A DNA stretch of 35,421 nucleotides from Cryomorphaceae bacterium (GCA_007695365.1 REDV01000086.1:1-35421), one strand, 5' to 3'; counted from the stretch's first letter, positions 1,517-35,421 are shown. The notes: generated by a model not told the origin, from the sequence alone. Translations and numbers: made by a program.

Positions 1517-1536
1517 TGACGCTTGTATTGCTTAGG

Positions 1537-1564: not shown

Positions 1565-1566
1565 TG

Positions 1567-2895: not shown

Positions 2896-2908
2896 ACGCA
2901 TAGAGCAC

Positions 2909-10608: not shown

Positions 10609-10616
10609 TGTTGAAA

Positions 10617-11000: not shown

Positions 11001-11003
11001 GCT

Positions 11004-12200: not shown

Positions 12201-14410
12201 TTCGCCACCTCGCTCATAAACTTGATGCGCATCAGGCGAAGCTCTTCTTCCGAGAAATCTCCACCAAACTCATCCACAGCAGCGTCAATGGAGTCGGTAT
12301 CGGCCTCCATAAAATACTCCATAATTTCCTCCTGGGCATCCTCGTCAATAAGGTCGTCGATGTAGTAATTGATATTCACCTTGGTACCCGAGTGCACAAT
12401 GGCTTCGATTTCGTCAATCACGTCCACAAGCTCTTTTCCTTTGGCCGACGCAATGTCATCCAGCGGCAGTTTGCGGTCAATATTGGTGATGATGTGAACC
12501 TTAAAACCCGACTTGTTCACCGCCGATTTAACCACAAGGTCTTGCGGGCGCTCTATCTCATTTTCTTCCACGTAGTCGCGGATAAGTGCCAGGAAGGGTT
12601 CACCAAATTTCAAAGCCTTACCACGACCCACGCCGGTAATATTTACCAGTTCATCCATCGTGGTAGGATATTGCACTGCCATATCCTGCAGAGATGCTTC
12701 CTGAAAAATAACGTAGGGTGGTAGTTCTTTTTCGCGCGCCACCCGTTTCACTTCATCTTTCAACATGCCGTAAAGTACCTGGTCCGAGCCCGAATCGTTG
12801 GCTCGCCCGTTCATTTTGGAATCACTGCCGCTGTCCGACTCGTCATACACACGTTCTTTGATAAGGGTAAACGACTTGGGCTTTTTGATGAAATCTCTTC
12901 CGGCATCAGACAGGTGCAGCACACCGTAGGTTTCAATTTCTTTCCACACCAGGCCTCCTACCACTGCCTGACGAATGACGGCATTCCAAAATTTATCATC
13001 GCGCCCGTCAAAAGAGTTTCCTTCACCAAAAAGCGGGTGTTTCTCGTGTTTGTAAGTCTTAATGTCATTGGAAGCATCTCCGCAAACAAAGTCCACAATG
13101 TGCTTGGCGCGGTGCTTTTCGCCGGTGGCTTCAATGGCCTTCAGCGCAACCAGCACCATTTCTTTACCTTCGATCCGTTCTTTGGGAAAGCGGGAGTTAT
13201 CGCACATTTTGGCGCCGGGTCCGTTTTCTTCATCGAATTCTTCACCAAAATAGTGGAGAATAAATTTCCGGCGGTTCATGGAGGTTTCAGCGTAGGCAAC
13301 CACCTCATTCAAAAGCTGCCGGCCAACCTCTTGTTCTGCTACAGGTTTGCCCTGAAGAAACTTCTCGAGCTTTTCAATGTCCTTATAGCTGTAAAACGCC
13401 ACACAATTCCCTTCGCCGTCGTCGCGACCGGCTCTTCCTGTTTCCTGGTAGTAGCTCTCGAGGCTTTTGGGCATATCGTGGTGAATCACATAGCGCACAT
13501 CGGGCTTGTCAATCCCCATTCCAAAAGCAATGGTGGCCACAATCACATCCACCTCCTCCATCAGGAACATGTCCTGATGTCTGGCTCGCACCGCTGATTC
13601 GAGTCCGGCATGGTACGGAAGGGCTTTAAAACCATTGAGCTGCAGAAGCTCTGCTATTTCCTCCACCTTTTTGCGGCTGAGGCAATAGATGATTCCTGAC
13701 TTACCCTCGTTTTGCTTAACGTACTTGATGATTTCCTTGTTGACGTTGACCTTGGGCCTTATCTCATAGTAGAGGTTGGGGCGGTTAAACGACGCTTTGA
13801 ACACCTTGGCGTCGAGCATGTCGAGGTTTTTCTGAATATCTTGCTGAACCTTGGGAGTTGCCGTGGCAGTAAGAGCAATAACAGGCACCTTGGCAATTTG
13901 ATCCATGATGGCCCTGAGCCGGCGGTACTCCGGACGAAAATCGTGTCCCCACTCCGAAATACAGTGCGCCTCATCAATGGCGAAAAAAGAAAGCTCTACC
14001 TTTTTAAGCAGTTCTATGTTCTCCTCTTTATTCAGCGATTCAGGCGCAACGTAGAGCAGCTTGCATTCTCCGCTTAGCAGGTCGTCGTGCACGCGCTGGG
14101 TTTCAGCTTTATTGAGCGACGAATTCAGGAAGTGCGCCACTCCATCGCTCTGGCTAACACCCCGTATGGCGTCAACCTGGTTCTTCATAAGCGCGATAAG
14201 GGGCGATACCACAACTGCGGTGCCTTCCATGATCATGGCCGGAAGCTGGTAGCAAAGTGACTTTCCTCCGCCTGTGGGCATGATGACAAAGGCGTTATGA
14301 CCGTCTAAAATAGCTTGTACTACGGCCTCTTGTTCACCTTTAAATGAGTTGAATCCAAAGAATTTCTTGAGCCCCGCTTTCGGGGTGAGCTGTGACGTTA
14401 ATGTTGACAT
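12197..14410 (-). CDS. recQ: ATP-dependent DNA helicase RecQ, zinc-site degenerate
   Basis: This 3'-5' DNA helicase (737 residues) acts in recombination and replication-fork repair. Motifs: Walker A MPTGGGKS (44-51), DEAH box with IDEAHCISEWGHDFRPEY (145-162), TATATP (181-186), helicase motif VI YYQETGRAGRD (320-330), a winged-helix region to about 520, and an HRDC domain (about 545-618). A further C-terminal region of about 120 residues is very acidic at its end. Most of the cysteines that bind zinc in E. coli RecQ are missing: the segment MNRRKFILHYFGEEF ... AKMCDNS (378-406) keeps one of four. I chose the ATG at 14410, since a promoter-like pattern sits just upstream. A longer frame could start at 14494. 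Confidence 0.93.
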   Translation of the reverse strand: MSTLTSQLTPKAGLKKFFGFNSFKGEQEAVVQAILDGHNAFVIMPTGGGKSLCYQLPAMIMEGTAVVVSPLIALMKNQVDAIRGVSQSDGVAHFLNSSLNKAETQRVHDDLLSGECKLLYVAPESLNKEENIELLKKVELSFFAIDEAHCISEWGHDFRPEYRRLRAIMDQIAKVPVIALTATATPKVQQDIQKNLDMLDAKVFKASFNRPNLYYEIRPKVNVNKEIIKYVKQNEGKSGIIYCLSRKKVEEIAELLQLNGFKALPYHAGLESAVRARHQDMFLMEEVDVIVATIAFGMGIDKPDVRYVIHHDMPKSLESYYQETGRAGRDDGEGNCVAFYSYKDIEKLEKFLQGKPVAEQEVGRQLLNEVVAYAETSMNRRKFILHYFGEEFDEENGPGAKMCDNSRFPKERIEGKEMVLVALKAIEATGEKHRAKHIVDFVCGDASNDIKTYKHEKHPLFGEGNSFDGRDDKFWNAVIRQAVVGGLVWKEIETYGVLHLSDAGRDFIKKPKSFTLIKERVYDESDSGSDSKMNGRANDSGSDQVLYGMLKDEVKRVAREKELPPYVIFQEASLQDMAVQYPTTMDELVNITGVGRGKALKFGEPFLALIRDYVEENEIERPQDLVVKSAVNKSGFKVHIITNIDRKLPLDDIASAKGKELVDVIDEIEAIVHSGTKVNINYYIDDLIDEDAQEEIMEYFMEADTDSIDAAVDEFGGDFSEEELRLMRIKFMSEVAN

Positions 14411-14415
14411 ATTTT

Positions 14416-14446
14416 CAAAATCAGAACTAATGCTTGCCTGAGCAAA
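14416..14446 (-). promoter_or_regulatory. Candidate recQ promoter, almost abutting the start codon
   Basis: On the minus strand TTTG (complement of 14443-14446), a 19-bp spacer and TGATTTTG (complement of 14416-14423) fit the Bacteroidota consensus with one mismatch. Only 5 bp separate the -7 box from the recQ ATG, so transcription would begin at or next to it. Confidence 0.42.
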
Positions 14447-14644
14447 CGAACAACTTGCAGGTATGTTACACGGGTCGCGGGTATTTTTTTTCAATCTGAG
14501 CTACCGATTGGGGAAAGCTGCTTTTTGCGACTGAATAAAAATACACTTTTTTCCGACATCCCAACAAATTTTTCGGCGAATACTATTGTGTTCACCGCTT
14601 TTTTTAACCTTCTGCTCCACGAATGTGTCTCGGTTGGTTATCCG

Positions 14645-19044: not shown

Positions 19045-19730
19045 GGTTGCAATCGGTTCTGAATAATAGAAATAAGCACATACAAAAGTAGGATAATTGG
19101 AATGGCTGCGAAAAAGAAAAAGAATAACATTACCGCGCTGATCAGCACAAAGATGTAACGCCACTGGTTGTCGTTCCAACGTACATGTTTAAACTTGAGC
19201 GCCATCAGCTCTAGCTGAGAAATCATCAACAGCGAAAACAGCACACTGAATACCACCAACCCCTGTGCGGAGAAAATCCATGCTGCTCCGGGAAACCACT
19301 GGTCGTAATGTATCATCAACGGAAGCGATAACCAAAAAAGCGCGTTGGCTGGAATGGGCAGCCCGATAAAGCGGTCGTGCTGTCGTGTGTCAATGTTGAA
19401 ACGGGCCAATCGGTAGGCTCCAAACATCGGAATCATAAGCGGGATCAGGCTGAACCAATCCCCGTTGGTTTGTTGCCCGAGCAAACTATAGCCAATAAGG
19501 CCCGGTGCCACACCAAAGGTTACCACATCTGCAAGCGAATCGAGCTGTTTGCCTAATTCGCCGGAAACTCCCAGTGCGCGGGCAACCAGTCCGTCCAGAA
19601 AGTCAAAAACCGCACCTGCCAGAATGAGCCACGCAGCGTAGTGCAAGCTGTATTCAAAAATGCAAATCACTGCCAAAATTCCGCAAAGCAGGTTCAGCAA
19701 GGTTACAAGATTGGGCAAATGCTGTTTCAT
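19041..19730 (-). CDS. pssA: CDP-diacylglycerol-serine O-phosphatidyltransferase
   Basis: This integral membrane enzyme makes phosphatidylserine from CDP-diacylglycerol and serine, the precursor of phosphatidylethanolamine. The CDP-alcohol phosphatidyltransferase motif DG(x2)AR(x8)G(x3)D(x3)D is exact: D43, D46-G47, A50-R51, G60, D64 and D68 in FDFLDGLVARALGVSGELGK and the following LDSLAD. The 229-residue protein has several hydrophobic helices and the N-terminal LPNLVTLLNLLCG typical of type-II PssA. I chose the ATG at 19730; upstream codons to 19799 give no family-like sequence. It is the first gene of a two-gene operon with purS, and a perfect TACATTTG box lies 9 bp upstream. A phosphatidylglycerophosphate synthase is less likely because the start is PssA-like. 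Confidence 0.9.
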   Translation of the reverse strand: MKQHLPNLVTLLNLLCGILAVICIFEYSLHYAAWLILAGAVFDFLDGLVARALGVSGELGKQLDSLADVVTFGVAPGLIGYSLLGQQTNGDWFSLIPLMIPMFGAYRLARFNIDTRQHDRFIGLPIPANALFWLSLPLMIHYDQWFPGAAWIFSAQGLVVFSVLFSLLMISQLELMALKFKHVRWNDNQWRYIFVLISAVMLFFFFFAAIPIILLLYVLISIIQNRLQP

Positions 19731-19739
19731 GTTACACGC

Positions 19740-19747
19740 CAAATGTA
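19740..19747 (-). promoter_or_regulatory. Candidate pssA-purS -7 box
   Basis: The complement of this octamer is TACATTTG, a perfect TAnnTTTG. It ends 9 bp from the pssA start codon. I find no good TTTG -33 element at the normal spacing. Confidence 0.35.
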
Positions 19748-19822
19748 AGGCAAACGGGCAATTTTTTTGTTTTTCTGTTGTTAAAACACATCGAACCACC
19801 TATGCTGCTTTGAGCGAAAATG

Positions 19823-19830
19823 TAATTTTA
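19823..19830 (+). promoter_or_regulatory. Weak candidate -7 box for the PorV-like gene
   Basis: TAATTTTA differs from TAnnTTTG at the last base. It ends 6 bp before the ATG at 19837, the same close placement seen for tatC and recQ. No -33 element is visible. Confidence 0.22.
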
Positions 19831-19836
19831 CGCCTT

Positions 19837-20913
19837 ATGTATGGTCTGCGCGATTTAGCCCGCTTTGGAGTTATTCTCCCGGTTCTCTTGCTTTCATTGG
19901 AGACCGCTGCTCAGGCACCCAAGTACAGTAACGAGTTTCTCGCCATTGGGGTGGGTGGCCGCGGGCTCGCCATGAGTGGAGCGCAGATTGCTTCGGTGAA
20001 TGACGTTACGGCCGGATACTGGAATCCGGTGGGATTGCTCGGCATACAGGATAAATTTCAGGTGGGTGCTATGCACTCGGAGTATTTTGCAGGTATCGCA
20101 AAGTACGATTACGGCGCCTTTGCCAAGCCCATTGATTCTACCTCAGCCATTGGAATTTCCATTCTGCGGTTTGGGGTGGACGACATTCCCAACACCACCC
20201 AGCTAATAGACGCCAACGGAAACATTGACTACGACCGCATTACCAGTTTTACCGCTGCCGACTACGGTTTTCTGCTTTCCTACGCCAAGAAAACCGGAAT
20301 CAAGGGGCTTAGCATAGGAGGTAACCTCAAAGTGATTCACCGCGTGGTGGGTAGCTTTGCCAAATCGTGGGGGTTTGGCTTGGATGTTGCAGCCAACTAT
20401 CACCATAAAGGCTGGATGTTTTCGGCGGTGGCCAGAGACGTGACCTCTACCTTTAATGCCTGGAGCTTTACCCTTGACGATGCTACCGTGGCTGTATTTG
20501 AAGCTACGGATAACGAAATACCGCAAGACGGGCTGGAACTCACCTTACCACGACTGATCCTGGGAGTTGCCAGAGAATTCACTTTCAATGACAAATTCTC
20601 ACTGCTTGGTGAAATCAACCTCGTAAACACCTTCGACGGCCGGCGAAACGTAGTGATCAGTGCCGACCCCATCAGCATTGAGCCGGTGGTTGGTCTAGAG
20701 GCAAGTTATCAGAAAATGGTATTTTTAAGGGCCGGTGTAGGTAACATTCAACGACACCTCAACGAATTGAACTCTGAAGAATGGGGCTTCCAACCCAACA
20801 TGGGGGTGGGCGTCAAAATTAAAAGCATCAGTATTGACTACGCCCTTACCAATATCGGAAATACTTCACAGGCACTCTACTCGCATGTGTTCTCGCTGCG
20901 CCTGGATATCTAG
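19837..20913 (+). CDS. PorV/PorQ-family outer-membrane protein
   Basis: This 358-residue exported protein resembles the PorV/PorQ family of type IX secretion. These are FadL-like barrels that carry cargo from the translocon to the sortase complex. After the signal peptide (MYGLRDLARFGVILPVLLLSLETAAQ) comes SNEFLAIGVGGRGLAMSGAQIASVNDVTAGYWNPVGL, where GxGxRxxAMGxA and D-x-x-A-x-x-W-N-P-A/V-G-L are the family pattern. The rest is strand-rich and ends with a terminal aromatic/hydrophobic pattern (HVFSLRLDI). The start at 19837 is set by the signal peptide. The PorU2-type gene begins inside its last codons, which supports a joint role in surface-protein processing. Which subgroup (PorV, PorQ or another paralogue) cannot be settled here. 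Confidence 0.85.
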   Translation: MYGLRDLARFGVILPVLLLSLETAAQAPKYSNEFLAIGVGGRGLAMSGAQIASVNDVTAGYWNPVGLLGIQDKFQVGAMHSEYFAGIAKYDYGAFAKPIDSTSAIGISILRFGVDDIPNTTQLIDANGNIDYDRITSFTAADYGFLLSYAKKTGIKGLSIGGNLKVIHRVVGSFAKSWGFGLDVAANYHHKGWMFSAVARDVTSTFNAWSFTLDDATVAVFEATDNEIPQDGLELTLPRLILGVAREFTFNDKFSLLGEINLVNTFDGRRNVVISADPISIEPVVGLEASYQKMVFLRAGVGNIQRHLNELNSEEWGFQPNMGVGVKIKSISIDYALTNIGNTSQALYSHVFSLRLDI

Positions 20914-23900
20914 TGCCCGTCGGGCGCTCGGGCTTTTCTTCTGGCTGATGCCGCTTTTTGCCTTGGCACAGCCCTTCGGAAACGAGTGGATAAACTACAA
21001 CCAGCGTTACTATAAATTCAAGGTGTGGGAAGAGGGCGTGTACCGCATTCCCTACAACACCCTGGCCGCTGCCGGCATTCCGCTCGCTACCATTGACCCC
21101 CGCACCATTCAGGTGTACAGTCGCGAAAATGAAGTTCCCATTTATGTGCACGGTGAGGAAGACGGCACCTTTAACCTCACCGATTACATAGAGCTCTATG
21201 CAACCGGTAACGACGGCTGGCTCGACGTGCTGACCTATAACCAACCACAAAACCACACCAATCCCGGCTATAGCCTGTACAACGACACCATTTACTACTA
21301 CATCACATGGGAGGAGGGAAACCTGAATAACCTGCGTTACCAGACATTGGCCAATCAGGAACTGGATGATTTGGAGCCCACCCCATTTGTGTGGCGCACT
21401 TCCAACCTGATTCTCAGCAACATTTACCACCCGGGCGAAATGGACGTGTGGGGGGCCTCTTCACCACTTTACACTGCCGGCGAGGGCTGGGTGGGATTGC
21501 GGGTTGGATTTCCCACAAGCAATGCTGCGAATCCAAGACTTTATCAAATTCCTTCGGGCAATGCCTACACGGGTCCCGGAGCGCCGCAAGCCGAATTCCG
21601 AACAACCTTTGCCAGCCTCAACAGCGCCGGAGTGGAACCGGGTCAACCCAACCACCACGTGCAGATTGCCTCCGGTACCGGAAACAACTTCAACAACCTA
21701 ACAATCGTTTACGACGAAACCTTTTTCGGGTATAAAGTGGTACACCACAACTGGAATGTGCCCAGTTCAGTGCTTGGAAACAACAACTCTGCAGTAGGGT
21801 TTCGCACGGTAAACGACCTGGGTGTAGCGGCCGATCAGATTGCAGCGGCAAATATCACCCTTCAATACCCCATGGTTCCCAATCTGGCCGGATCTTCGGG
21901 CTGGAATGTGCACATACCATCGGACGGCTCAGGACAATTGCAGCGTTTTCGCTTTGAAGGAATAGGCCAAAACCCTGTGGTGTACGCGCGCGGAAATGCT
22001 CCAAGGCGTATCGTGGCTCAGCCCGACGGAAATTTCTGGCAGGTGGGCATTCCTCAAACAGGCTCGGATGTAATACCATGCTACGTGGTGGCCGGCAATG
22101 CCATTCAAACGGTAACACAAGTTAAGGCGGCCGGTATTGCAGGTAATGGTATTCTCACCAATTTCGCCACTTTCAACGTTGATTCGGCCTACGTAATCGT
22201 AACGCACAATAAACTGCTGGCCGCGGCTCAGACCTACGCAGCGCATCGCAATCTGCGCTTCAATACCTTTGTGGTGGATGTGGAGGAACTGTACGATCAA
22301 TTTGGAGGCGGAATTGAAAAGTGTGGACTTGCCGTGCGGCGTTTTTCAGACTTCTTGCTCACCAACTGGACCACTCCGCCGCAGTACCTCTTTTTAGTCG
22401 GGAAATCCATACGCGAAGCCGTAGGTAACGCCGGCCAGAACGGCGCGCGGAAAGTACCTGCCCATTTTGAACGCAACCTTGTACCGTCGTTTGGCTATCC
22501 GAGTAGTGACAATCTGATAACCCGTGGGTTGCAAAACAACCCGGGTTGGGCGCCTGCGCTGCGAACGGGCCGACTGGCTGCTGAAACGCCGCAGGATGTG
22601 ATAGATTACCTGAACAAGGTGCAGACTTTCGAAAATCAACCCCCGGCAGAGTGGATGAAAAATGTCATGCATTTTGGGGGTGGCGTAAATAATCAGGAGC
22701 AAAATACCTTTCAGGGCTTTTTAAATGACTACAAAGCCATAATTTCCGACACCTGTTTTGGTGGGAACGTGCATTCGTTCTTTAAAACTTCGCAGGACCC
22801 CATTTCCATCAATCTTTCGGCCGAAATCAGCGACCTGATCAACGGAGGGGTTTCGCTGATGACCTTTTTTGGGCACGCAGGCGGAACCGGTTTCGACCAA
22901 AGTATTGACGATCCCAATAACTTCGAGTGGAATGGTCGTTTTCCTTTTCTCATTGGTAATGCCTGCTTTACCGGTGACATTCACCAACCCGGAAGCAATA
23001 GCACCAGCGAGAACTTCCTGTTGCTTCAGAACAAAGGAGTGATTGGCTTCTTATCCACTGTAGAACTTGGTTTTGCCAATACTCTCAACGTGTACAGTAA
23101 GGAGTTTTACAAACAACTAAGCTCCAAGAATTACGGAGGAACGGTCGGTGACCACATGCGGAAAACCATTCAACTGGTTTCGGGTGAGACACCGGGAATT
23201 ATGATGCAAAACCAAGTGCTGGGCATGACACTTCATGGCGATCCTGCCATTGTACTCAACTCTTTTCCCAAGCCCGATTACGCCATTTCCGAATCGAGCG
23301 TGTTTTTCGACCCGCCCGAGGTCACAGCCATCATGGATTCGCTGACCATTAATGTGGCACTGAAGAATATCGGTAAAGCCACCAATCAGAGTTTTGATGT
23401 AGTGGTTGAACGAAAATTTCCCGACAACGGCGCCGATTCGGTGTACGTGGTGAGGGTAGATCACCTCCATTACAAGGACACCGTGCGTATAACCATGCCT
23501 GTGCAACCCGAAAGATCATTGGGCATCAATACATTTGATGTCAGCGTGGACCTCCCCTCGGTGGAAGTGGACGAACTCGACAATTTTGGGAACAACGTGG
23601 TATTGGGCGTGCAGCTCAACATTACCAGTGGTGGAATTATCCCTGTTTACCCCTACCGCTACGCCGTAGTTGCTGACCCGCAGATCAGCCTGAAAGCATC
23701 TACCGGTGATATTTTTGCCTCTGAAACCGCCTATCGCTTTCAGGTAGATACCACACGCTCGTTCAACAGTCCCTTTCTCACCCAACAAGTACTTACCCAA
23801 AACGGTGGTGTGATTGAGTGGCCCCTGCCTTTTACCATGACCGATAGCACCGTGTACTTCTGGCGGGTAGCCATTGACGACGCTCCGCTCAATGAGTTAA

Positions 23901-25990
23901 AGTGGCGTGAAAGCTCTTTTCAATACATACCCGAAAAAACAGGATGGGGACAGGCACACTTTCAGCAGTTTAAAGACAATTTCTTCGGTCAGCTTGTGTA
24001 CAATGAACCCGACCGACTGATTGACTTTTTCAGCGGAACGGTAAACCTACGCTGCAACGTGCTTGGGAATTCAACCTCACTGAACAATGAAGTTGCACTT
24101 GACCTCAACATCATTGAATACGGCGGATGCGCCAATCCTCCGGCTATGCACGTGGTGGTGCTCGACCCTACCACTTTTGAGGCCTGGGGCACTGCGGTTG
24201 ACGGGCAAAATCCCCAAAACGATTTCGGAAATCAAAATACAGGTTCGGCGTGTAGGAACAGGGTGGAGTACTTCTTTATTTTCAGGCAAAACAATGAGGC
24301 GCAAATGCAGGGTTTCTCAGATATGGTGCTAAATGCTGTGCCGAATGGACACTATCTTCTAATCTACACATGGCGTTTTTTGGTTGAAACCAGCCTGTCC
24401 AACACCAACTTTTACAACACGATGTCGCAATTGGGCTCTACTGTGAATCCCACTGAGCACGATAGCATTCCCTACATTTTCTTTGTACGCAAGGGCGATG
24501 GAGGCTCAGTCGAAGAGATTTTCGGGGCCGATTTAAATGATGTCATTCAGCTCAATACACTGCTTCAGGCTTCGGGAGATGAGGGAGTGATGGTGTCTCC
24601 TCCTGCCGGACCGGTAGCTGAATGGGGCTCGTTTCACTACCGCTTTCACCCCAGAGAAAACCCCAGCACCGATTCGGTAGGAGTGCGCTTGAGGGGAATC
24701 ACCACTAATAATACAGTTTTGGATATTCCGGGTTCTCAAACCTCGGGCTTTTCATTTGATAAACCCGAGCTAAGCAACTGGGTAGATGCATCGGAGTACC
24801 CAAGGCTGCGGATCCGCACGCGGCTCAAAGACACCGAAAATCAAACCCCGGCCCAGCTTCGTCGCTGGCATTTGTTGCACGACGAAGTACCCGACGCCGC
24901 CGTTAATCCCGCTGCATGGTTTGTGTTTGAATCTCCCGAAGTAGACCAGGGCGAGCAAATGCTGGTTTCCTACGGCATTACCAACGTGAGCACCGTGGAT
25001 ATGGACAGCCTGCTTGTGCGCTATTGGGTGGTGCGCGAAAACAACACCACACAGGAAATTGACCTGCGCCGTATTGCCCCCCTACCGGCGGGAGAAACCA
25101 TTATTGATTCGCTCATTTTTGATTCGTGGGGACTGTCAGGAAGCAACCAGTTCAGGCTCGAAATCAACCCCATCAACCCGCAAACAGGTCAATTCGATCA
25201 GCTTGAGCATCACCGCTTCAATAACTTTTTGCAGGTGGGATTCAAAGTGTCGCGCGATGTGATTAACCCGCTGCTTGACGTCACTTTTGACGGACTGCAT
25301 ATTTTGGATGGAGAAATCGTTTCGGCCAATCCTGAAATCAGCATTTCGCTCACCGACGAGAACATGTTTCTGATGATGAACGAAGACGCCGATACCTCCA
25401 ATTTTGAGATCTTTATATCACCTCCAGGAGGCGAGTTTGAGCGCCACTATTTTTACCAGGGAGGAATGCCCAATATGCAATGGATACCGGCATCGGGAGG
25501 AACTAACCGTTTTCAGATTCTCTACAGGCCGCGCTTTGATCTGGATGGCACACACACACTGTTGGTGCGTGCAACCGACAAATCGGGTAATCCCAGCGGT
25601 GAAAAAGACTACCGTATCAGTTTTGAGGTTATCAATCAAAGCACCATTACCGATGTGCTTAATTACCCCAACCCTTTTTCTACCAAAACACATTTTGTTT
25701 TTACGCTCACCGGCTCAGAAGTGCCCGACTACATAAAAATCCAGATTATGACCATCTCCGGTAAAATTGTGCGTGAAATCACCCACATGGAGCTGGGGCC
25801 CATCAGGGTGGGGCGCAACATCACCGACTTTTACTGGGACGGTACCGATATGTATGGCGACCGGCTGGCCAACGGCGTGTACCTGTACCGCGTTATTGCC
25901 AAAATACACGGGCAAAGCATCACCAAGCGCGAAACGGGCGCCAGTCAGTACTTCAGGCAGGAGTTCGGAAAAATGTACCTTATCCGATAA
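20885..25990 (+). CDS. porU2: Type IX secretion sortase-like peptidase, PorU2 type (C25 family)
   Basis: This very long (1701 residues) exported cysteine peptidase-like protein relates to PorU, which removes the C-terminal sorting domain of T9SS cargo and attaches the protein to the surface. The N-terminus after the signal peptide (FGNEWINYNQRYYKFKVWEEGVYRI) is typical of long PorU2 forms. The C25 domain (about 430-800) keeps the catalytic pair: His in MTFFGHAGGTGFD (H664) and Cys in LIGNACFTGD (C694). Beta-sandwich domains follow, and the C-terminus (about 1590-1701) has an FlgD-like fold with LNYPNPFSTKT and FYWDGTDMYGDRLANGVYLYR. The ATG at 20885 gives a signal peptide and overlaps the PorV-like gene by 29 bp, suggesting coupling. 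Classical PorU is nearer 1150 residues, so this may be a paralogue rather than the main sortase. Confidence 0.85.
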   Translation: MCSRCAWISSARRALGLFFWLMPLFALAQPFGNEWINYNQRYYKFKVWEEGVYRIPYNTLAAAGIPLATIDPRTIQVYSRENEVPIYVHGEEDGTFNLTDYIELYATGNDGWLDVLTYNQPQNHTNPGYSLYNDTIYYYITWEEGNLNNLRYQTLANQELDDLEPTPFVWRTSNLILSNIYHPGEMDVWGASSPLYTAGEGWVGLRVGFPTSNAANPRLYQIPSGNAYTGPGAPQAEFRTTFASLNSAGVEPGQPNHHVQIASGTGNNFNNLTIVYDETFFGYKVVHHNWNVPSSVLGNNNSAVGFRTVNDLGVAADQIAAANITLQYPMVPNLAGSSGWNVHIPSDGSGQLQRFRFEGIGQNPVVYARGNAPRRIVAQPDGNFWQVGIPQTGSDVIPCYVVAGNAIQTVTQVKAAGIAGNGILTNFATFNVDSAYVIVTHNKLLAAAQTYAAHRNLRFNTFVVDVEELYDQFGGGIEKCGLAVRRFSDFLLTNWTTPPQYLFLVGKSIREAVGNAGQNGARKVPAHFERNLVPSFGYPSSDNLITRGLQNNPGWAPALRTGRLAAETPQDVIDYLNKVQTFENQPPAEWMKNVMHFGGGVNNQEQNTFQGFLNDYKAIISDTCFGGNVHSFFKTSQDPISINLSAEISDLINGGVSLMTFFGHAGGTGFDQSIDDPNNFEWNGRFPFLIGNACFTGDIHQPGSNSTSENFLLLQNKGVIGFLSTVELGFANTLNVYSKEFYKQLSSKNYGGTVGDHMRKTIQLVSGETPGIMMQNQVLGMTLHGDPAIVLNSFPKPDYAISESSVFFDPPEVTAIMDSLTINVALKNIGKATNQSFDVVVERKFPDNGADSVYVVRVDHLHYKDTVRITMPVQPERSLGINTFDVSVDLPSVEVDELDNFGNNVVLGVQLNITSGGIIPVYPYRYAVVADPQISLKASTGDIFASETAYRFQVDTTRSFNSPFLTQQVLTQNGGVIEWPLPFTMTDSTVYFWRVAIDDAPLNELKWRESSFQYIPEKTGWGQAHFQQFKDNFFGQLVYNEPDRLIDFFSGTVNLRCNVLGNSTSLNNEVALDLNIIEYGGCANPPAMHVVVLDPTTFEAWGTAVDGQNPQNDFGNQNTGSACRNRVEYFFIFRQNNEAQMQGFSDMVLNAVPNGHYLLIYTWRFLVETSLSNTNFYNTMSQLGSTVNPTEHDSIPYIFFVRKGDGGSVEEIFGADLNDVIQLNTLLQASGDEGVMVSPPAGPVAEWGSFHYRFHPRENPSTDSVGVRLRGITTNNTVLDIPGSQTSGFSFDKPELSNWVDASEYPRLRIRTRLKDTENQTPAQLRRWHLLHDEVPDAAVNPAAWFVFESPEVDQGEQMLVSYGITNVSTVDMDSLLVRYWVVRENNTTQEIDLRRIAPLPAGETIIDSLIFDSWGLSGSNQFRLEINPINPQTGQFDQLEHHRFNNFLQVGFKVSRDVINPLLDVTFDGLHILDGEIVSANPEISISLTDENMFLMMNEDADTSNFEIFISPPGGEFERHYFYQGGMPNMQWIPASGGTNRFQILYRPRFDLDGTHTLLVRATDKSGNPSGEKDYRISFEVINQSTITDVLNYPNPFSTKTHFVFTLTGSEVPDYIKIQIMTISGKIVREITHMELGPIRVGRNITDFYWDGTDMYGDRLANGVYLYRVIAKIHGQSITKRETGASQYFRQEFGKMYLIR

Positions 25991-27410: not shown

Positions 27411-28181
27411 ATGATAAAAACACTCAAGAAGATCGTTCCTTCAGGAATGAAGAAGAGGATTAAGCTCGCGATGCTTTCGGGAAACAAGGTGAATTGCCCG
27501 TTCTGTGGTTTTAACGCAAAAGAATTGGCGCCCATTGGGTTAGACTCTAAAGTTTTGAGAGAAAAACAAGTGATTGGCGCAGGTTTGAGAAATGCCGGTT
27601 GTTACAAATGTGGATCTTCAGACAGGGAAAGGTTAATTTATGTTTACCTCAAACATGTCCTCAAGGTATTTGACAGCAAGAACTTGAGGATTTTGCATTT
27701 CGCACCAGAGAAAAACTTGTCTAATCTGTTGAGCCAGATTGGATTCGAGAAATATGTCTGCGGAGACTTGTTTACCGAGGGCTACAATTACCCCCACTAC
27801 GTTCAGAATATGAATGTTTTAGACATTCCCTTCGAAGACAATTCGTTTGATTTCGTCATATGCAATCATTTACTTGAACACGTGCCGAATGATGGAGATG
27901 CCATGAAAGAGTTGTTTCGGGTTTTAAAGCCGAATGGAAGAGCAATTCTGCAGGTGCCAATATCGAGTAATTCTGAATCAACATTTGAAGATTTTTCCGT
28001 AACCGATCCGAAAGAAAGGGAATTGGTATTTGGTCAGTTTGATCATGTACGGATATACGGGCAGGACTACGCAGACAAACTGCGTGCAGTAGGCTTCAAA
28101 GTTGAACGCGTCAACATTTCGAAAAAATATGAGAAATACGGGTTGTGCATGGATGAGGACATTTTTCTTGGAATGAAATAA
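27411..28181 (+). CDS. SAM-dependent methyltransferase with N-terminal zinc-ribbon-like segment
   Basis: This class-I methyltransferase has 256 residues. An N-terminal cysteine cluster, NCPFCGFN (about 28-35) and GCYKCGSSDRER (about 64-75), looks like a zinc ribbon. The Rossmann part follows: LRILHFAPEKNLSNLL (motif I region, altered from the usual ExGCGxG), YVCGDLF, NVLDIPFEDNSFDFVICNHLLEHVPND (motif IV, methyltransferase type-11 style) and LFRVLKPNGRAILQVP. The substrate is unknown; relatives often lie in sugar or glycan gene sets. Base use stands out: sampled lines are 37-40% G+C, against clearly above 50% in flanking genes. It is preceded by 158 bp without a gene and followed by a convergent cluster, so recent acquisition is plausible. 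Confidence 0.85.
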   Translation: MIKTLKKIVPSGMKKRIKLAMLSGNKVNCPFCGFNAKELAPIGLDSKVLREKQVIGAGLRNAGCYKCGSSDRERLIYVYLKHVLKVFDSKNLRILHFAPEKNLSNLLSQIGFEKYVCGDLFTEGYNYPHYVQNMNVLDIPFEDNSFDFVICNHLLEHVPNDGDAMKELFRVLKPNGRAILQVPISSNSESTFEDFSVTDPKERELVFGQFDHVRIYGQDYADKLRAVGFKVERVNISKKYEKYGLCMDEDIFLGMK

Positions 28182-28238: not shown

Positions 28239-29756
28239 CTACCCCCCCACCACCTCCGCAAACACCGGCTCATTTAATAACATGCCGCAGGTGAGCAAAG
28301 CAGTGGTAGTAACGCCCTTGATGCCGTGCAGATGCACATACTGACCGGTAAAAAACAGATTGGGGATTTTGCTCTGCGGTGATACAAAAGCGCGGTGTGG
28401 CTGGCGGTAATCTTTGAGTTTTCCGTAGGCTGCACCACGGGGTACATTCAGGTAATCTCGCAGGGTGAGCGGGGTGGCCGTGTGCCAGCTTTGAATGGCA
28501 TGCTTAAAACCCGGAAATCGCTCATTGACCGCGTTGATCAATCGCAAGCCGCGCTGATGCTTAAAGTTTTCGTAGTCGTCGCCGCGACCTGAGGGCTGCG
28601 CCGTGGTGTTGAAAGAATCCTCCCATTGGCGCACCTCATCGTAGTGCATGTACGCCAGTACCGTGGCGGCCACCGCGTGGGGTTGTGCCGGCGACACCGC
28701 CGCAGGGTACAACAGCCAACTGTCGGGCCATTGGGCTTTGTGGTAATTCACCGCCGACCACACATCAGGGCGGCTGTAGTGGTAGTAATTTCGCGTCAGG
28801 TAGGGAAAAGTACCAGGCTTAAACACCACATAAAGGGCAAAAAACGACGTAGTTTCGGGCACATCTGCAATCCGCCTGCGATAAGAAGCCCGCAGCGCAC
28901 CCCCGCGCAACAAGGCAAGGGCCTTTTCCGGCGCAAAATTGGCAATCACATACTTCGCCTCAAACACATCTCCATCAGCCGTTTGCACCCTTCGAACCAC
29001 TCCGTTCTCCACCTGCAGTTCGCTTACTTCTTTTCTGCGGAAGAGCGCACCTCCCCTGCTCCGTATTCCGGCAGCGAGGTGTTTGGCCATTTGGGCTCCG
29101 CCGTCAACGCATCGCCACGCGCTCTGCAGGTAGCTGTTCACAATGAGCGCATGCTGGTGGAGGGGCGTAACTCCACCCAAGCCGCCGTAAAGAGGGATGT
29201 TGCCGGCAAGCACTTCGCGCAGCTTTATATTGCTTGTAAGCGACGCTATAAAAGCCTGGGCATCGGTGCGCATGGCTTCAGTATTGAGCGCCTCCCAGGA
29301 AGTTTCGCGCAACTGATTGGCGTAAAAAGAGTCGCTCACTTCCTTCAAGACGTCCACATAGCGCTGAATGGAGACACGCTCTTCCGGGAAAAACTCCGCC
29401 AGTCGGTTCACAAAATGTTCGCGTCCCTGGGCAAGCGGGTACTCACGCGGATCGCCGTCAAAACTGATTACGTCAAATGCATCGGTATCCAATCGCTCCA
29501 ACTTCAGGTGCTCCATCAATCCGAAGTAGGAAAAAATGCGGTGCAATGGCTCGCCTTCGTCCAGCTCACCTATGTAATGCACCCCCGTGTCAAACAAGGT
29601 TTTATCACGACTGAACACCTGCAAACATCCACCGTATTGCACATTTTTTTCAAGCACACACACCTTCATGCCGCGACCTGCCAGGTAGTAGCCACAGAGC
29701 AAACCGCCAAGTCCCGAGCCCGCAATCACCACGTCGTATGTGCGGTCATCTTCCAT
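28239..29756 (-). CDS. CrtI/retinol-saturase-like FAD oxidoreductase of the pigment cluster
   Basis: This FAD-dependent oxidoreductase of 505 residues resembles phytoene desaturase, carotenoid isomerase and retinol saturase-type proteins. The N-terminal Rossmann motif YDVVIAGSGLGGLLCGYYLA (GSGLGG 13-18, with acidic E36 ending strand 2) is clear. YGGCLQVF and FDTGVHYIGEL follow, and the C-terminal flavin loop is LFFTGQYVHLHGIKGVTTTALLTCG. The reaction is not known. In flexirubin/aryl polyene clusters a related enzyme probably acts on the polyene or its precursor. The ATG at 29756 overlaps the stop of the upstream fusion gene by 11 bp, so it is the last gene of the visible operon. Its stop faces the methyltransferase gene across 57 bp of pyrimidine-rich sequence. 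Confidence 0.87.
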   Translation of the reverse strand: MEDDRTYDVVIAGSGLGGLLCGYYLAGRGMKVCVLEKNVQYGGCLQVFSRDKTLFDTGVHYIGELDEGEPLHRIFSYFGLMEHLKLERLDTDAFDVISFDGDPREYPLAQGREHFVNRLAEFFPEERVSIQRYVDVLKEVSDSFYANQLRETSWEALNTEAMRTDAQAFIASLTSNIKLREVLAGNIPLYGGLGGVTPLHQHALIVNSYLQSAWRCVDGGAQMAKHLAAGIRSRGGALFRRKEVSELQVENGVVRRVQTADGDVFEAKYVIANFAPEKALALLRGGALRASYRRRIADVPETTSFFALYVVFKPGTFPYLTRNYYHYSRPDVWSAVNYHKAQWPDSWLLYPAAVSPAQPHAVAATVLAYMHYDEVRQWEDSFNTTAQPSGRGDDYENFKHQRGLRLINAVNERFPGFKHAIQSWHTATPLTLRDYLNVPRGAAYGKLKDYRQPHRAFVSPQSKIPNLFFTGQYVHLHGIKGVTTTALLTCGMLLNEPVFAEVVGG

Positions 29757-32700
29757 CTTTTGCGCGAATTAGGTACACCACATTGGAGGTAAAGCGGGTG
29801 TTGTCAACAACCTCAACCGTGGCACCGGCTTGTTCGGCCACTCCGGAGATAAAGTCGCGCGTTACAAAACACAACTCATTCCGGTTCATTTTGTTAAAAC
29901 CAATATTGGTTGATAGAAATTCCGTGAGCCAGGTACCGCGCTGCCTTTCTTCGAGGGCGGCATCCGCATCGCGCACCAGTATCAGCCCGCCGGGTTCCAA
30001 CCCCCCAATACAAGCTTCCAGCACCCTTTGCTGATCTTCGGCCGGGAGGTAGTGTAACACATCGGCCAGCACGTATGCGTTTGCACGCGGCAGGGGGTCG
30101 GTGAGTACGTTATGGACTTCAAAGCGGAGATTCGGCGTGGGAGTGGATGTATTATTGGCCACCGCAATTTTTTCTTCGTCGTGATCCAGGCCTATAACCG
30201 TGCGCTCGTGGGAAGTCCAAGCGAGAATGTGTGCCAGGAATCCGTATCCGCAGCCAATGTCCACAATGGTTCCGCTTTGGGGCAGGTGCTCGTGAAAGAA
30301 CCGGTAATTGCCTTCCATGCGGGTTTTGATGCGCGTGTACCACTCCAGCACCGGCCCTTTAAGGATGTAGTTTCGCAGCAACTGGTCGCGAAAGTAATCC
30401 GGCGACTCCCACTCCTTGCGCAAGGTGGCGTAGCGCTGCTTAAAATGGCGGGCAATGCTTTTGGTGCGTTCCTGATATGTGTCGCCCCAACTGCGGTCAG
30501 CGAAAGGAATGCGCGGTTCAATCAGGCGGTGAACCATGCCGTTTTTCAGCAGGTATGAATCGCCCTTCGGCATGGAGTAATGACTTCCGTGAAAAATGAT
30601 GGGCACGATGTCAAGCTTCAACTCTTCCGAGAGATAAAAAGCTCCCTTGTGAAAACGGTTCAGGTAGCCATCTTCCGTGCGCGTTCCCTCCGGAAAAACC
30701 ACAATGGAGCATCCCTGTGCCACGAGTTCCCGCAACCTTGGAATAAAGCGTTCGTAACCATCGTTCACGTGAAAATAGCCGGCATAGCGCACCGCCCACC
30801 CAAATACGGGCGAGTCGTACACCCACTTTTTCACCACCATCACCATATTGGGGTGAATATTGAGCGTAATCAGGATATCAATGAAGCTCTGGTGGTTGGC
30901 AATCACCACGGCCGGTTTGCTGAAGTCCTCGTTGTGCGGATTGAGGTAGCGACGGGGCACGTTCACCATGATGGCTGCGAGTGAGCCAAGAAAGGTACCC
31001 ATCAAGCCTCTGAAAAACCTTCGCTTGCGCTCATTGCCAAATGGGAACAGGTGTAAAAAAAGCATCACCACATTCAGCACCAGGCACCCCACAAAAAAGT
31101 AGGTGAGCGAAAACACGCCAAGCACCAGGTTGATGATGTTGACAGGTACCAGTCCCCGTTCCTTGCGGTCTATCATTGCCCAGCGAAAAAGCATGGGCTG
31201 CAAAGTGTAGGCAATCAACACCATGCTACCGATTCCGACCAAGGACATTCCGGCGATGGAGCGCAAAGCAGGGTGTTGGGCGAAAATCAGCACACCCACG
31301 CCCACGGTGGTGGTAAAGGCCGACATGAAAATGGAATTCTTGTAGGAAACGAGCTCATCGCGCCCGTACTTGAAATGCTGCATCATACTCCGCGAAATAA
31401 AGATGCTGTAATCAATGCCCAGACCGAAAATAAAGGTTGAAATGATGATGTTGAAGATATTGAATTGCAGTCCGAAAAGCTTCATAAGACCCAGGGTCCA
31501 CGTCCACGCAATCATCATGGGCAAAAAGGTAAACAGGGCCACTTCTATTCTGCCATAGGCGATAAGCAACACCAGAAAAACGATCAGTAGCGACCACTGT
31601 ACCAGTCGCTCAAAATCCTGCGACACAAAGGCAATGATTTCGTTGGTGATGTGCTGTTTGTCGAGCACCATCACTCCGCTCACACCCGCCGCAAGCTGTG
31701 TAATCTGTTGTCTCCACTCTTGCTCGGTGCGCACCACGGTTACCAACTGAACGCGCTCATCTTCGCGATGCACAAAATGCCGAAACAGCGGAATGCTCGC
31801 CCACTCCACATAATCCGGTGGGCTGTACGATTCTTTTGCCCGCCGGAAAAACGTTTCGTAAGCACCATCGCGCATTCCCAATTCCATACCGGCGCGGTTC
31901 ATTTCCTGTGAAAGAAATGTGATGTATTCCGGCGTCATGCGGGCATCCCACCTGGCTTTGCGTCGTAAGGCCTCTTCGGGAGTGGGCACAATCGACACAA
32001 ATGACGCGAGGGCCTGCAGACTTCCTTCGGGGCTTTGGCTCTTTAACTTTTTCTGAAGCGCATACGAAGTTTCGAGGGCTTGCTGCCAGTTTTCACCTTC
32101 AGAAACGAGCAATACATTTTTAAGCGATGCCGTGCTGATGCGATTCAGGTTTTGCTCTGCACGATCCAGTTCGGGCGTGGTGTAGTTCATTTTCAGAAGG
32201 TCGCCTTCAAAACCCACTTCACCCGGCAAAAAGTAGAGCACCCCGGTGAGCAGCAGCACACCCATTACCACCCAACGGCTTTTATCGGGACGCAAAGCAT
32301 TGAGCCGGTCAATCATGCTGTTGCGCCGGGATTCGTGCAGTTGCATGCCCTGCGATAGAAAATGTGGCAGAAGCAACAAAGCCGTAGCCGCTCCCACCAG
32401 CACACTTACAGCCGCAAAAATGCCCAGGTTCTTCATGGCCGGTGCGTGCAGTGTGAGAAGTGTAAAAAAGGCGGCGGCCGTGGTAACCGAGCTCAGAAGC
32501 GTCGGCTCTGCGAGGTCGTGAATGGTCTCTTCCACTTTGCCTTTTGACCTGAAATGCGTGAACACATGCAGCGCATAATCTACGCTGATTCCGAGCAAAA
32601 TTGAACCAATGCCCACCGCAATGAGCGAAACCGACATACCGAGCCAGGCAAAAACCGCCAGCGCAGATGCTCCTCCAACAAGCGAAGGAATCAGAATCAG

Positions 32701-33582
32701 CGCAAACACGCGGATACTGCGGTAAAACAGGAATATCACCACGAGAAGCGCCGCCGCCGCCAGTGAAACCGTAAAAAAGATGTCGCGCTTGATTTGGGCC
32801 GCATTCACCGAAGCTGCCAGTGGTGCTCCAAACATTTCGAGGACCACACTTCCATGGGTCAACTCGTTGGTTTTTTTGGCAACTGCCCGTAACGAGTCGT
32901 AAAGCGCTGTGTTGAGCTGCGAGTCGTTGGCCGGAAAAGCCGGTTGGGCGAAAAGTACGAGATGGCGTTCATCCGGCGACATTAAAAAGCCGTCCACCAG
33001 CTCTAGTTGTTCATCCAGGTTGAACTGGTTGAGTCTGTTAAGCACCCTAAGCCCAAGTCCCAAAGGATCGGCCACCACAAAGCGCGAGGTAAGAAAACCT
33101 GAATGCGAGGTAATCTGGCGATGGTTTGCACGCGCCTGACTGCGAATCGCATCGGGGTGCTGCAAGGAATCGAGGTAGGCATAATCTGCATCTGTGAGCA
33201 GGAAAGGCAGCTGATCCATGATCAGGTCATATAGCCTTCCGGCATCGCCTTCATCCACCCGCATGGGTTCATCTTTGAGCAATTGAGGTTGGAGGGGTTC
33301 CAGCCACATAAGAAGTTCTTCGGCCACGTCGGCAAGGTGCATTTCGGCAGAAGAATCAGCCATCAGGTGGAGCACCACCCTATCTGAAAACACGGCGGCA
33401 TCCAGCGATTTGAGCACGCTTTGCGCGCGCTGGTCAGCAGGAAGCAGGTCGGTTACATCCTCTGAGAAAGAGATTCGCTGAATACTCCACAGAGCAAGGC
33501 CTGCCCATGCCAGCAGCAGCAAGGCCAGCAACCATCTGCGCGCGCGAAAAAAACGGTATATCGCTGTGAACAAGGCTCCCAT
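29746..33582 (-). CDS. Trifunctional MMPL exporter / PlsC-like acyltransferase / methyltransferase fusion
   Basis: This 1278-residue inner-membrane protein has three joined parts. Residues about 1-840 form an RND/MMPL exporter with two repeats: hydrophobic blocks at 268-410 and 660-800, the motif GISVDYALHVF (331-341) and its partner GLGIDYSIFIS (720-730), and large periplasmic loops between. Residues about 865-1060 form a PlsC-like lysophospholipid acyltransferase with NHQSFID (H897, D902; HX4D) and FPEGTR (963-968). Residues about 1085-1278 form a class-I methyltransferase with IVDIGCGYGF (1106-1115) and VLADVLHYLPAEDQ. The same three-part form exists in other Bacteroidota flexirubin-type clusters. 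Likely roles are export and acyl transfer of the aryl polyene lipid. It begins 3 bp after the GT2 gene and overlaps the oxidoreductase gene by 11 bp. Confidence 0.92.
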   Translation of the reverse strand: MGALFTAIYRFFRARRWLLALLLLAWAGLALWSIQRISFSEDVTDLLPADQRAQSVLKSLDAAVFSDRVVLHLMADSSAEMHLADVAEELLMWLEPLQPQLLKDEPMRVDEGDAGRLYDLIMDQLPFLLTDADYAYLDSLQHPDAIRSQARANHRQITSHSGFLTSRFVVADPLGLGLRVLNRLNQFNLDEQLELVDGFLMSPDERHLVLFAQPAFPANDSQLNTALYDSLRAVAKKTNELTHGSVVLEMFGAPLAASVNAAQIKRDIFFTVSLAAAALLVVIFLFYRSIRVFALILIPSLVGGASALAVFAWLGMSVSLIAVGIGSILLGISVDYALHVFTHFRSKGKVEETIHDLAEPTLLSSVTTAAAFFTLLTLHAPAMKNLGIFAAVSVLVGAATALLLLPHFLSQGMQLHESRRNSMIDRLNALRPDKSRWVVMGVLLLTGVLYFLPGEVGFEGDLLKMNYTTPELDRAEQNLNRISTASLKNVLLVSEGENWQQALETSYALQKKLKSQSPEGSLQALASFVSIVPTPEEALRRKARWDARMTPEYITFLSQEMNRAGMELGMRDGAYETFFRRAKESYSPPDYVEWASIPLFRHFVHREDERVQLVTVVRTEQEWRQQITQLAAGVSGVMVLDKQHITNEIIAFVSQDFERLVQWSLLIVFLVLLIAYGRIEVALFTFLPMMIAWTWTLGLMKLFGLQFNIFNIIISTFIFGLGIDYSIFISRSMMQHFKYGRDELVSYKNSIFMSAFTTTVGVGVLIFAQHPALRSIAGMSLVGIGSMVLIAYTLQPMLFRWAMIDRKERGLVPVNIINLVLGVFSLTYFFVGCLVLNVVMLFLHLFPFGNERKRRFFRGLMGTFLGSLAAIMVNVPRRYLNPHNEDFSKPAVVIANHQSFIDILITLNIHPNMVMVVKKWVYDSPVFGWAVRYAGYFHVNDGYERFIPRLRELVAQGCSIVVFPEGTRTEDGYLNRFHKGAFYLSEELKLDIVPIIFHGSHYSMPKGDSYLLKNGMVHRLIEPRIPFADRSWGDTYQERTKSIARHFKQRYATLRKEWESPDYFRDQLLRNYILKGPVLEWYTRIKTRMEGNYRFFHEHLPQSGTIVDIGCGYGFLAHILAWTSHERTVIGLDHDEEKIAVANNTSTPTPNLRFEVHNVLTDPLPRANAYVLADVLHYLPAEDQQRVLEACIGGLEPGGLILVRDADAALEERQRGTWLTEFLSTNIGFNKMNRNELCFVTRDFISGVAEQAGATVEVVDNTRFTSNVVYLIRAKDGR

Positions 33583-33585
33583 CCA

Positions 33586-34773
33586 TCAGCTTTTGAGAGG
33601 TTCTTTGCGAAAGAGCAAAAAGAGCAGATACAAGAGCAAGCCCACTGCTATTCCCGCAGTCAACGAGAGCATAACCGCTCCCAACAGGTACTGGCTGAAA
33701 TGAATACCGATATCCGCTACGCTGATTTCCGTGGAGAACTGCAGAGGCCGCTCCGAGGTATCAATCACCCATCCGCCCATCATGTAGCTTCCGTAGATGA
33801 TGAATGGAATCATGGGCGGGATGCTGATGTTGGATGCCAGGAGCACCACTACCTTGTTGAAGCGAATGAGATGGGCCACAAAAGCCGCCACCAGCATCTG
33901 GTAACCCCAAATGGGGAAAATTCCCATAAAAACCCCAAAGCCCACTTCGGCGGCGAGTTTGGCGTTGCTGGCTTTGGTTTTCAGGAGGTTTTTGTTGAGA
34001 AAGGCTTTGATGTTCGTCCAATTCAGGGAGCGAAAAAAAGAGCGCGGGTGGTGGTAGAAAAACGCCAACAGTACCAATATGGTATTCAACACGCTGATTC
34101 GCGCAAAATCGTGAAACGGCCTGAAGTGCGTAATGCGCGAGCCATCGGTGTGGTAAATCACCGATACCGGCACCGACACGATGCGTACTCCGCGCCATGC
34201 CAATCGCACCAGCACTTCTATCTCAAACTCGTATTTGCGGGTGTGAAAGCGCATGCCACTGATGGGTTCCAGTGGATACAAACGATAGCCAGATTGCGTA
34301 TCGGGCAGTTTCTGAAAGGTTTCCACATAAAACCAGAAATTAGAAAAGCGGTTTCCAAAACTGCTTTTTCCGGGTACACCTTCCTGGTCCATATTGCGCG
34401 CACCCACAATCATGCTTCCCGGATGCCGGGTTACTTCCTCCAGAAATTTGGGCAGGTCTTCCGTGAGGTGCTGCCCGTCGGAGTCTATGGTAATGGCATG
34501 GTGGTAGCCCGCTTGCCACGCCGCCCGAAACGCGTTTCGCAAAGCCATTCCTTTACCCTTGTTGCGGTCGTGATGCAGCACGAGAAAAGTATCCTCATAG
34601 GATTCGAGTAGCTGACGCGTATCATCGGTGGAGCCGTCGTTCACAATGACCACACGGTGGGTTTCGGCGGCAAGGCGCTCCAGCAGAGCCGGTAAAAAGG
34701 GGGCATTGTTGTACGTTGGAACCACGATGCAGCAGTCGGCTGCCCGCAACATGCTATCCAGCACGGAGGTCAT
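33586..34773 (-). CDS. Glycosyltransferase family 2 fused to DUF2062
   Basis: This membrane-bound glycosyltransferase has 395 residues. The GT2 domain (about 12-235) shows CIVVPTYNNAPFLPALLERL, VIVNDGSTDDT, the DxD-type metal site in TIDSDGQH (D97, D99) and SGYRLYPL; it looks like the polyprenyl-phosphate-sugar synthase branch. The C-terminal DUF2062 part (about 255-395) has three hydrophobic helices with GVFMGIFPIWGYQ and SNISIPPMIPF. The fusion is recurrent in flexirubin/aryl polyene clusters. The ATG at 34773 is chosen because it overlaps the dehydratase stop as ATGA; an upstream ATG at 34803 would overlap more. The acceptor is unknown, but the pigment's lipid or head group is a reasonable guess. 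The next gene begins after 3 bp. Confidence 0.9.
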   Translation of the reverse strand: MTSVLDSMLRAADCCIVVPTYNNAPFLPALLERLAAETHRVVIVNDGSTDDTRQLLESYEDTFLVLHHDRNKGKGMALRNAFRAAWQAGYHHAITIDSDGQHLTEDLPKFLEEVTRHPGSMIVGARNMDQEGVPGKSSFGNRFSNFWFYVETFQKLPDTQSGYRLYPLEPISGMRFHTRKYEFEIEVLVRLAWRGVRIVSVPVSVIYHTDGSRITHFRPFHDFARISVLNTILVLLAFFYHHPRSFFRSLNWTNIKAFLNKNLLKTKASNAKLAAEVGFGVFMGIFPIWGYQMLVAAFVAHLIRFNKVVVLLASNISIPPMIPFIIYGSYMMGGWVIDTSERPLQFSTEISVADIGIHFSQYLLGAVMLSLTAGIAVGLLLYLLFLLFRKEPLKS

Positions 34774-35141
34774 TCCTTGAGCAGACCTTTGAACTTGAAG
34801 CACACATCACCGTTAAACCAGGTGCTGCTCATCACTTTCACCGTTCCGTCTTCAAGGGTTTCGGTTTGCACTTTCACCTCCAGCTCATTGCCCTGCCGCG
34901 GGTCAACCACAGCGGTAAACTTCAAATCGGTCCCTTCCAGCACGCGAAGATCTCTGCCTGTAATAGCCGAAACGGCATCCACCACCATCTGCATGTGACA
35001 AACACCGGGCAAAATGGGCGATCCGGGAAAATGGCCGCCAAAAATATCGTGGGCAGCGTTCAGGCCAAAAAAGGCAATGTGGCCCGAGGATTCACCGTCC
35101 ACATCTACCTTGTGCAATTCGTATAGGTCGTTTAACAACAC
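34770..35141 (-). CDS. FabZ-like hotdog dehydratase of the pigment cluster
   Basis: This 123-residue single hotdog-fold protein resembles 3-hydroxyacyl-ACP dehydratases (FabZ/ApeI type), which would introduce each double bond of a polyene chain. The active-site helix region GGHFPGSPILPGVCHMQM holds the catalytic histidine (H37). The residue aligned with FabZ's catalytic glutamate (the E of PGVLIxE) is glutamine (Q51). The start is GTG at 35141, giving MLLNDLYELHKVD; TTG at 35138 is an alternative. The stop overlaps the GT2 start in an ATGA, so translation is probably coupled. TAAAGGTA at 35158-35165 is a weak minus-strand -7-like box. Upstream 85 bp separate it from the LolA-like gene. Confidence 0.87.
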   Translation of the reverse strand: MLLNDLYELHKVDVDGESSGHIAFFGLNAAHDIFGGHFPGSPILPGVCHMQMVVDAVSAITGRDLRVLEGTDLKFTAVVDPRQGNELEVKVQTETLEDGTVKVMSSTWFNGDVCFKFKGLLKE

Positions 35142-35226
35142 GGCTAAAGTAAAGCGGTAAAGGTACGTTTTAGAAATGTTTTGGTGAAGATGAAAAGCAA
35201 GGCCGGCATTCCGCGAAATTCTGAAC

Positions 35227-35421
35227 CTATCGCAGGGGCTCAGGCTTAAACACTTCTGCGGAAACAGGCTGGTTATACACCTGATTAGAGAAACGATACA
35301 CGGTAAAATCGCCGTTGGCGGCTGTCATCCTCATTTCACGTACGCGGTAATCATCGCCGAAAAAAAGTTCCATGTGGCTAACGTGTTCGGCCATCGTGCG
35401 ATCGGTGGGCGTCATGCGCAC
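35227..35421 (-). CDS. LolA-like outer-membrane lipoprotein carrier, C-terminal part
   Basis: Only the last 64 residues are inside the window; the start lies beyond the right edge. The end matches the LolA fold: MELFFGDDYRVREMRMTAANGDFTVYRFSNQVYNQPVSAEVFKPEPLR, where GD-x-T-x-Y-x-F-S-N-x-x-x-N-x-P-x-x-x-x-x-F is the usual closing pattern of LolA proteins. Housekeeping LolA moves lipoproteins to the outer membrane. A cluster-specific paralogue in aryl polyene loci is thought to help carry the lipid product. Its place before the dehydratase gene on the same strand, 85 bp away, supports the cluster paralogue. Confidence 0.78.
   Translation of the reverse strand: MRMTPTDRTMAEHVSHMELFFGDDYRVREMRMTAANGDFTVYRFSNQVYNQPVSAEVFKPEPLR

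Follow-up and report, generated by a model that had tools for sequence, protein, structure and literature searches.

Five contig-end genes as the probable export and finishing part of a flexirubin-type aryl polyene operon in a Cryomorphaceae bacterium

At one end of a contig from a Cryomorphaceae bacterium (GCA_007695365.1, REDV01000086.1:1-35421; contig C86, whose full 35,421 nucleotides are the window analysed here), five tightly packed minus-strand genes occupy positions 28239 to 35421 and resemble part of a flexirubin-type (flx) cluster, the kind of locus that gives Bacteroidota yellow-orange cell-surface pigments, polyenes derived from tyrosine. Open reading frames (ORFs) and the Pfam and NCBIfam domain calls made on them agree with an earlier account drawn from the DNA alone (the sequence-only reading) on the position, spacing and domains of all five genes. 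The letters FlxR to FlxV used below for their positions are given by gene order and are not taken from the Chitinophaga pinensis gene table.

The gene at the contig end (35227..35421, FlxR position) encodes a LolA-like periplasmic carrier, an identity upheld by a PF03548 match and by its best family, NF053544 (“flexirubin LolA2”, 44.6 bits), but only the C-terminal 64 codons are present and the match covers only the last 59 positions of that model (149-207 of 208), as the contig stops at 35421 with the frame still open. At least about 450 bp of the gene is missing; a copy in a genome of the same genus (G001) is 97% identical. After a gap of 85 bp comes a FabZ-like half-dehydratase (34770..35141, FlxS position) with weak matches to TIGR01750 and PF07977 (FabZ/PKS_DH), which keeps the catalytic His in the motif GHFPG and has Gln where the catalytic Glu is expected. 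It overlaps by 4 bp (ATGA) a fusion of a GT2 glycosyltransferase with DUF2062 (33586..34773, FlxT position; PF00535, 86 bits; PF09835, 66 bits), the start of which is placed at the ATG at 34773, overlapping the preceding stop, while the mechanically called ORF begins at 34803; other flx clusters have, at this point, homologues 46-50% identical to it. Only 3 bp further on, between 33586 and 33582, lies the largest gene (29746..33582, FlxU position), whose 1278-residue product joins an MMPL/RND exporter (PF03176), a PlsC acyltransferase (PF01553) and an S-adenosylmethionine-dependent methyltransferase (PF13649, Methyltransf_25), with the PlsC motifs NHQSFID and FPEGTR and the methyltransferase motif VDIGCGYG intact. 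The last gene on this side, overlapping the fusion by 11 bp, encodes a CrtI/CrtD-like FAD oxidoreductase (28239..29756, FlxV position) that matches PF01593 and, far below the carotenoid cut-offs, TIGR02733.

The border that the sequence-only reading had drawn at the CrtI-like gene is real. In other species the next two genes encode an acyltransferase of the AAT (C45) type and, in the FlxY position, an AMP-binding enzyme; here what follows is a convergent methyltransferase gene (27411-28181, plus strand), 57 bp away and with 40.7% GC against 50.7% for the window, which was possibly acquired from elsewhere.

The sequence-only reading had looked for the chain-building genes to the right of 35421, where this contig holds no sequence; they are present in the same genome (G000; 3.52 Mb in 154 contigs, 99.98% estimated completeness) on another contig, C129. 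A search for ketosynthases (KSs) found four KS-like genes side by side there, all on the minus strand. Counted from its start, C129 carries a polysaccharide deacetylase, a KS-like protein that lacks the active-site Cys, a KS, an acyl carrier protein (ACP), an unassigned protein, a KS, a thioesterase (TE), a second FabZ-like dehydratase (FlxF; L025 (C129):5449-5880), an LpxL-type acyltransferase, an ACP, a KS, the reductase FlxB, the tyrosine ammonia-lyase (TAL) FlxA and a methyltransferase of the FlxJ family. FlxA (L025 (C129):8976-10517, minus strand; NF053541, 792.5 bits) and FlxB (NF053542, 390.8 bits) exceed their family cut-offs of 700 and 340. The three remaining KSs have an intact Cys, and the Cys-less protein adjoins an active KS both here and in Chitinophaga rupis; we place it, from its sequence, as the putative chain-length factor (CLF) of a KS:CLF pair. 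The type II KS/CLF, ACPs, dehydratases and thioesterase of the flx polyene part are thus all present in this genome, in the strand and order expected to run into the window, which bears out the reading of the five genes as part of a pigment cluster.

Beyond the FlxJ gene, L025:13234-18815 (C129) holds a FadD-like ligase, an FAD oxidoreductase, a WS/DGAT-like protein, an extra ACP and an ABC transporter (ABC-2 permease). The ligase, oxidoreductase and WS/DGAT-like protein have no counterpart in any other flx locus that was examined and may stand in for FlxY and AAT.

The ends of C86 and C129 share no direct sequence overlap, so their adjacency rests on gene order. Because a deacetylase precedes the LolA, dehydratase (DH) and GT2 genes in C. 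rupis, Flavobacterium pectinovorum (with extra genes) and the relative G091, we infer that C129 continues C86 across a short missing piece. In C. rupis and F. pectinovorum the fusion and the CrtI-like gene also follow, and order and content are partly matched in 80 named loci. The recurrence of the same gene order in distant Bacteroidota indicates that the five-gene arrangement is not due to chance.

Co-occurrence points the same way. The full-length fusion and FlxA (E below 1e-130) were found in the same 6 of 40 relatives. Across the 245 genomes of the order that are at least 90% complete, the fusion occurs in 42 and FlxA in 41, all 41 being common to both (Fisher's exact p about 5e-46, for genomes that are not independent); the one fusion-bearing genome outside the FlxA count, G134, carries both on one short contig, at whose end FlxA is cut to a fragment. 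Full-length fusion homologues are therefore confined to FlxA-bearing genomes, if G134, with its FlxA cut by the contig end, is counted with them, and all 15 named flx genomes carry the fusion, so that the five genes are not, as the sequence-only reading had allowed they might be, found mainly outside such clusters. Co-occurring nearly without exception with the flexirubin ammonia-lyase, the MMPL-PlsC-methyltransferase fusion is a sharp genomic marker. The CrtI-like gene adjoins it, at 37-45% identity, in C. rupis, F. pectinovorum, G003, G018, G025 and G091, and a homologue 39-42% identical lies inside Chryseobacterium flx loci. The fusion is divergent from FlxA in G034 and G091, 20 kb or more away in G003 and G018, and on a separate contig in G025, and it is therefore best described as a linked but mobile module.

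The two FabZ-like proteins show complementary losses. In a set of about 140 homologues that includes many close relatives and some duplicate loci, FlxF-class proteins keep the Glu in 124 of 124 and have lost the His in 120 of 124, while every one of the 18 FlxS-class proteins that extend to the site keeps the His, and 17 of 19 have Gln for Glu. The FlxF of this genome has a His, and its orthologue in G001 has Tyr there. ApeI and ApeP form a heterodimeric dehydratase with a single active site (PMC8041823), and the pattern in FlxF and FlxS suggests, by analogy, a split-site heterodimer of the same kind.

Taken together, the five genes appear to form the downstream part of a flexirubin-type aryl polyene operon, serving export and finishing, and an assembly break appears to have parted them from the biosynthetic half; we give this reading a probability of about 0.9. 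Several points weigh against it. The join between the two contigs comes from gene order and not from reads; the FlxJ-family methyltransferase matches NF053543 over its whole length at 525.6 bits, just under the cut-off of 560; and the roles of the CrtI-like, PlsC, GT2 and methyltransferase domains are predicted ones. In addition, a search of the window, C129, C115 and about 1.3 Mb of the 3.5-Mb genome did not turn up AAT (C45) or the FlxY 4-coumarate ligase, which normally stand beside CrtI; the remainder was not searched for them, and this is no proof of absence.

What sets this cluster apart lies in the other half of the pigment. Flexirubins in the strict sense are esters of a polyene acid with a dialkylresorcinol (DAR), the latter being the product of DarA and DarB (PMC3992019). 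Queries for both were taken from F. pectinovorum, DarB being identified by NF053539 (671 bits) and DarA, which has no family match, by position and co-occurrence; as positive controls, they retrieved homologues in C. rupis, Chryseobacterium formosense, G018 and G025. In the present genome the DarB query found only FabH, at 28% identity, and the DarA query found nothing; neither was found in G001 (81% complete). The genome stretches read for AAT and FlxY, 1.32 Mb in all, were read for DarA and DarB as well, a coverage that cannot establish their absence. Canonical DarB (377 residues, longer DarB-like proteins being counted separately) is present in 38 of the 42 fusion-bearing genomes of the order, the exceptions being this genome, G034, G091 and G003. 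Longer DarB-like KSs of 546-634 residues, 40-45% identical to DarB, occur in G003, G048, G052, G063, G069 and G116, with a fragment in G066; they are kept apart from canonical DarB because four of their genomes have no flx cluster.

This could still be an ordinary, complete flexirubin producer, making the usual polyene-dialkylresorcinol ester, with DarA and DarB (and AAT and FlxY) lost in assembly gaps or diverged. The genome is in 154 pieces, one of the breaks falling visibly within the cluster itself, C129 has an ABC permease/ATPase pair like the one beside DarAB in F. pectinovorum, and canonical DarB is the rule among fusion-bearing genomes of the order. However, both Dar genes would have to be missing from a genome 99.98% complete, and from G001 as well, and cluster-bearing relatives at 98-99% completeness likewise lack DarB (G034, G091) or DarA (G003, G034), all of which makes a complete producer rather unlikely. 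A resorcinol half might instead come from a type III polyketide synthase locus on C115 (L046 = C115:4000-23289), giving an alkylresorcinol-polyene ester. That locus is present, with a chalcone/stilbene-synthase-type gene, two methyltransferases, an FAD monooxygenase, a short-chain dehydrogenase/reductase, a FabZ, a KS and a phosphopantetheinyl transferase at 7588-14565, but this is a complete tailoring set of its own, and the synthase is found in only 6 of the 245 genomes, of which G047 and G048 have no flx cluster and G143, G219 and G220 also have DarB, while the other flx genomes lacking DarB (G003, G034 and G091) do not have it. As a substitute for DarAB the synthase was rejected, since it does not track the loss of DarB, and an ester of this origin is improbable. 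Finally, the window could hold the end of a carotenoid cluster, with the CrtI-like gene a carotene desaturase or isomerase and its neighbours unrelated lipid genes. The best NCBIfam matches of the oxidoreductase are indeed the CrtD, CrtISO and CrtI models, but at 56-88 bits against cut-offs of 238-587, short of CrtI-family membership; none of the other genes examined carries a carotenoid annotation, and in distant species the gene adjoins the MMPL fusion within flx clusters, so that a carotenoid origin can be given hardly any weight.

By its polyene and export parts, then, the cluster is of the flexirubin-type aryl polyene (flx) kind, and the searches for DarA and DarB do not let it be filed, on sequence, as a flexirubin sensu stricto. 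In all but one respect the cluster is ordinary: the two genes for the pigment's usual second half are apparently lacking from this genome. The sequence-only reading had left the product as an aryl polyene or a dialkylresorcinol; the polyene stands, but the dialkylresorcinol alternative is not supported, DarA and DarB not having been found in this genome. For that reason the anchor is probably something other than a dialkylresorcinol, and a tyrosine-derived aryl polyene on such an anchor is the likely product. A broader proposal, for which the odds seem about even, is a naturally DAR-free branch of flx clusters in which PlsC-, LpxL- or WS/DGAT-like enzymes would put the polyene acid on another alcohol or a glycolipid, giving an aryl polyene lipid instead of a flexirubin, in a lineage that would also have lost AAT and FlxY beside CrtI. 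Lack of DAR genes is not new in itself, since, of 39 genomes with polyene-associated clusters, only 16 were reported to have DAR clusters too (PMC3949708); a search by name found no paper on DAR-free flx clusters in Bacteroidota. The few genomes that have the polyene and export machinery, apparently without the DAR genes, could show what anchors the polyene when no dialkylresorcinol is made, and they counsel caution against calling every flx cluster, or every strain positive in the potassium hydroxide (KOH) test, a flexirubin producer.

Gene content, gene order, co-occurrence and the pattern of catalytic residues can be read directly from the DNA, and a putative pathway can be drawn from them. 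Tyrosine would be deaminated to 4-coumarate, which would then be activated and extended with malonyl units by the KS/CLF, FlxB and an FlxF:FlxS dehydratase in which one partner would give the Glu and the other the His. With no enoyl reduction during extension, the result would be an aryl polyene acid, which FlxJ and the methyltransferase domain of the fusion might decorate, and the CrtI-like FlxV might oxidise or isomerise the polyene or its head, the weakest step of the scheme. The PlsC and GT2 or LpxL-type enzymes may help to attach the polyene to its anchor, a lipid or an alcohol, and MMPL and LolA would carry it to the outer membrane, as proposed for ApeM and ApeL (PMC8253772).

The closest known systems are the flx clusters of Chitinophaga and Flavobacterium (C. 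pinensis flxA-flxY, PMC3992019; the C. rupis and F. pectinovorum loci), which share the order TAL-FlxB-KS-ACP-acyltransferase-DH-TE-KS ... ACP-KS-CLF-deacetylase-LolA-DH-GT2-MMPL fusion-CrtI, as well as FlxA and FlxB at equivalog level; they differ from the present locus in DarA and DarB, in the AAT and FlxY that come after CrtI, and in the genes found here on the other side of FlxA (the FadD-like ligase, FAD oxidoreductase, WS/DGAT-like protein, extra ACP and ABC transporter). The ape clusters of Escherichia coli and Xenorhabdus (PMC8253772) resemble it in type II fatty acid synthase-like polyene synthesis, a KS:CLF, paired dehydratases, a glycosyltransferase and acyltransferase, LolA and an RND exporter, with no need for a dialkylresorcinol, but start from 4-hydroxybenzoate loaded by ApeH, in contrast to the tyrosine ammonia-lyase here. 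The export set conserved between flexirubin and xanthomonadin-type clusters (PMC3992019, PMC3949708) comprises LolA, a glycosyltransferase, an acyltransferase and an exporter, and all are present here in the conserved order. The arcuflavin and xanthomonadin clusters of Azoarcus and Xanthomonas (PMC3949708) share this set, and xanthomonadins have no DAR half, but their starter is derived from chorismate (XanB2-type) and not from tyrosine.

Elsewhere in the window, two adjoining plus-strand ORFs at 1477-4270 resemble, by eye, kynureninase and kynurenine 3-monooxygenase, and two more at 19660-25990, also on the plus strand, resemble by eye the type IX secretion proteins PorV and PorU, which fits a Bacteroidota genome.

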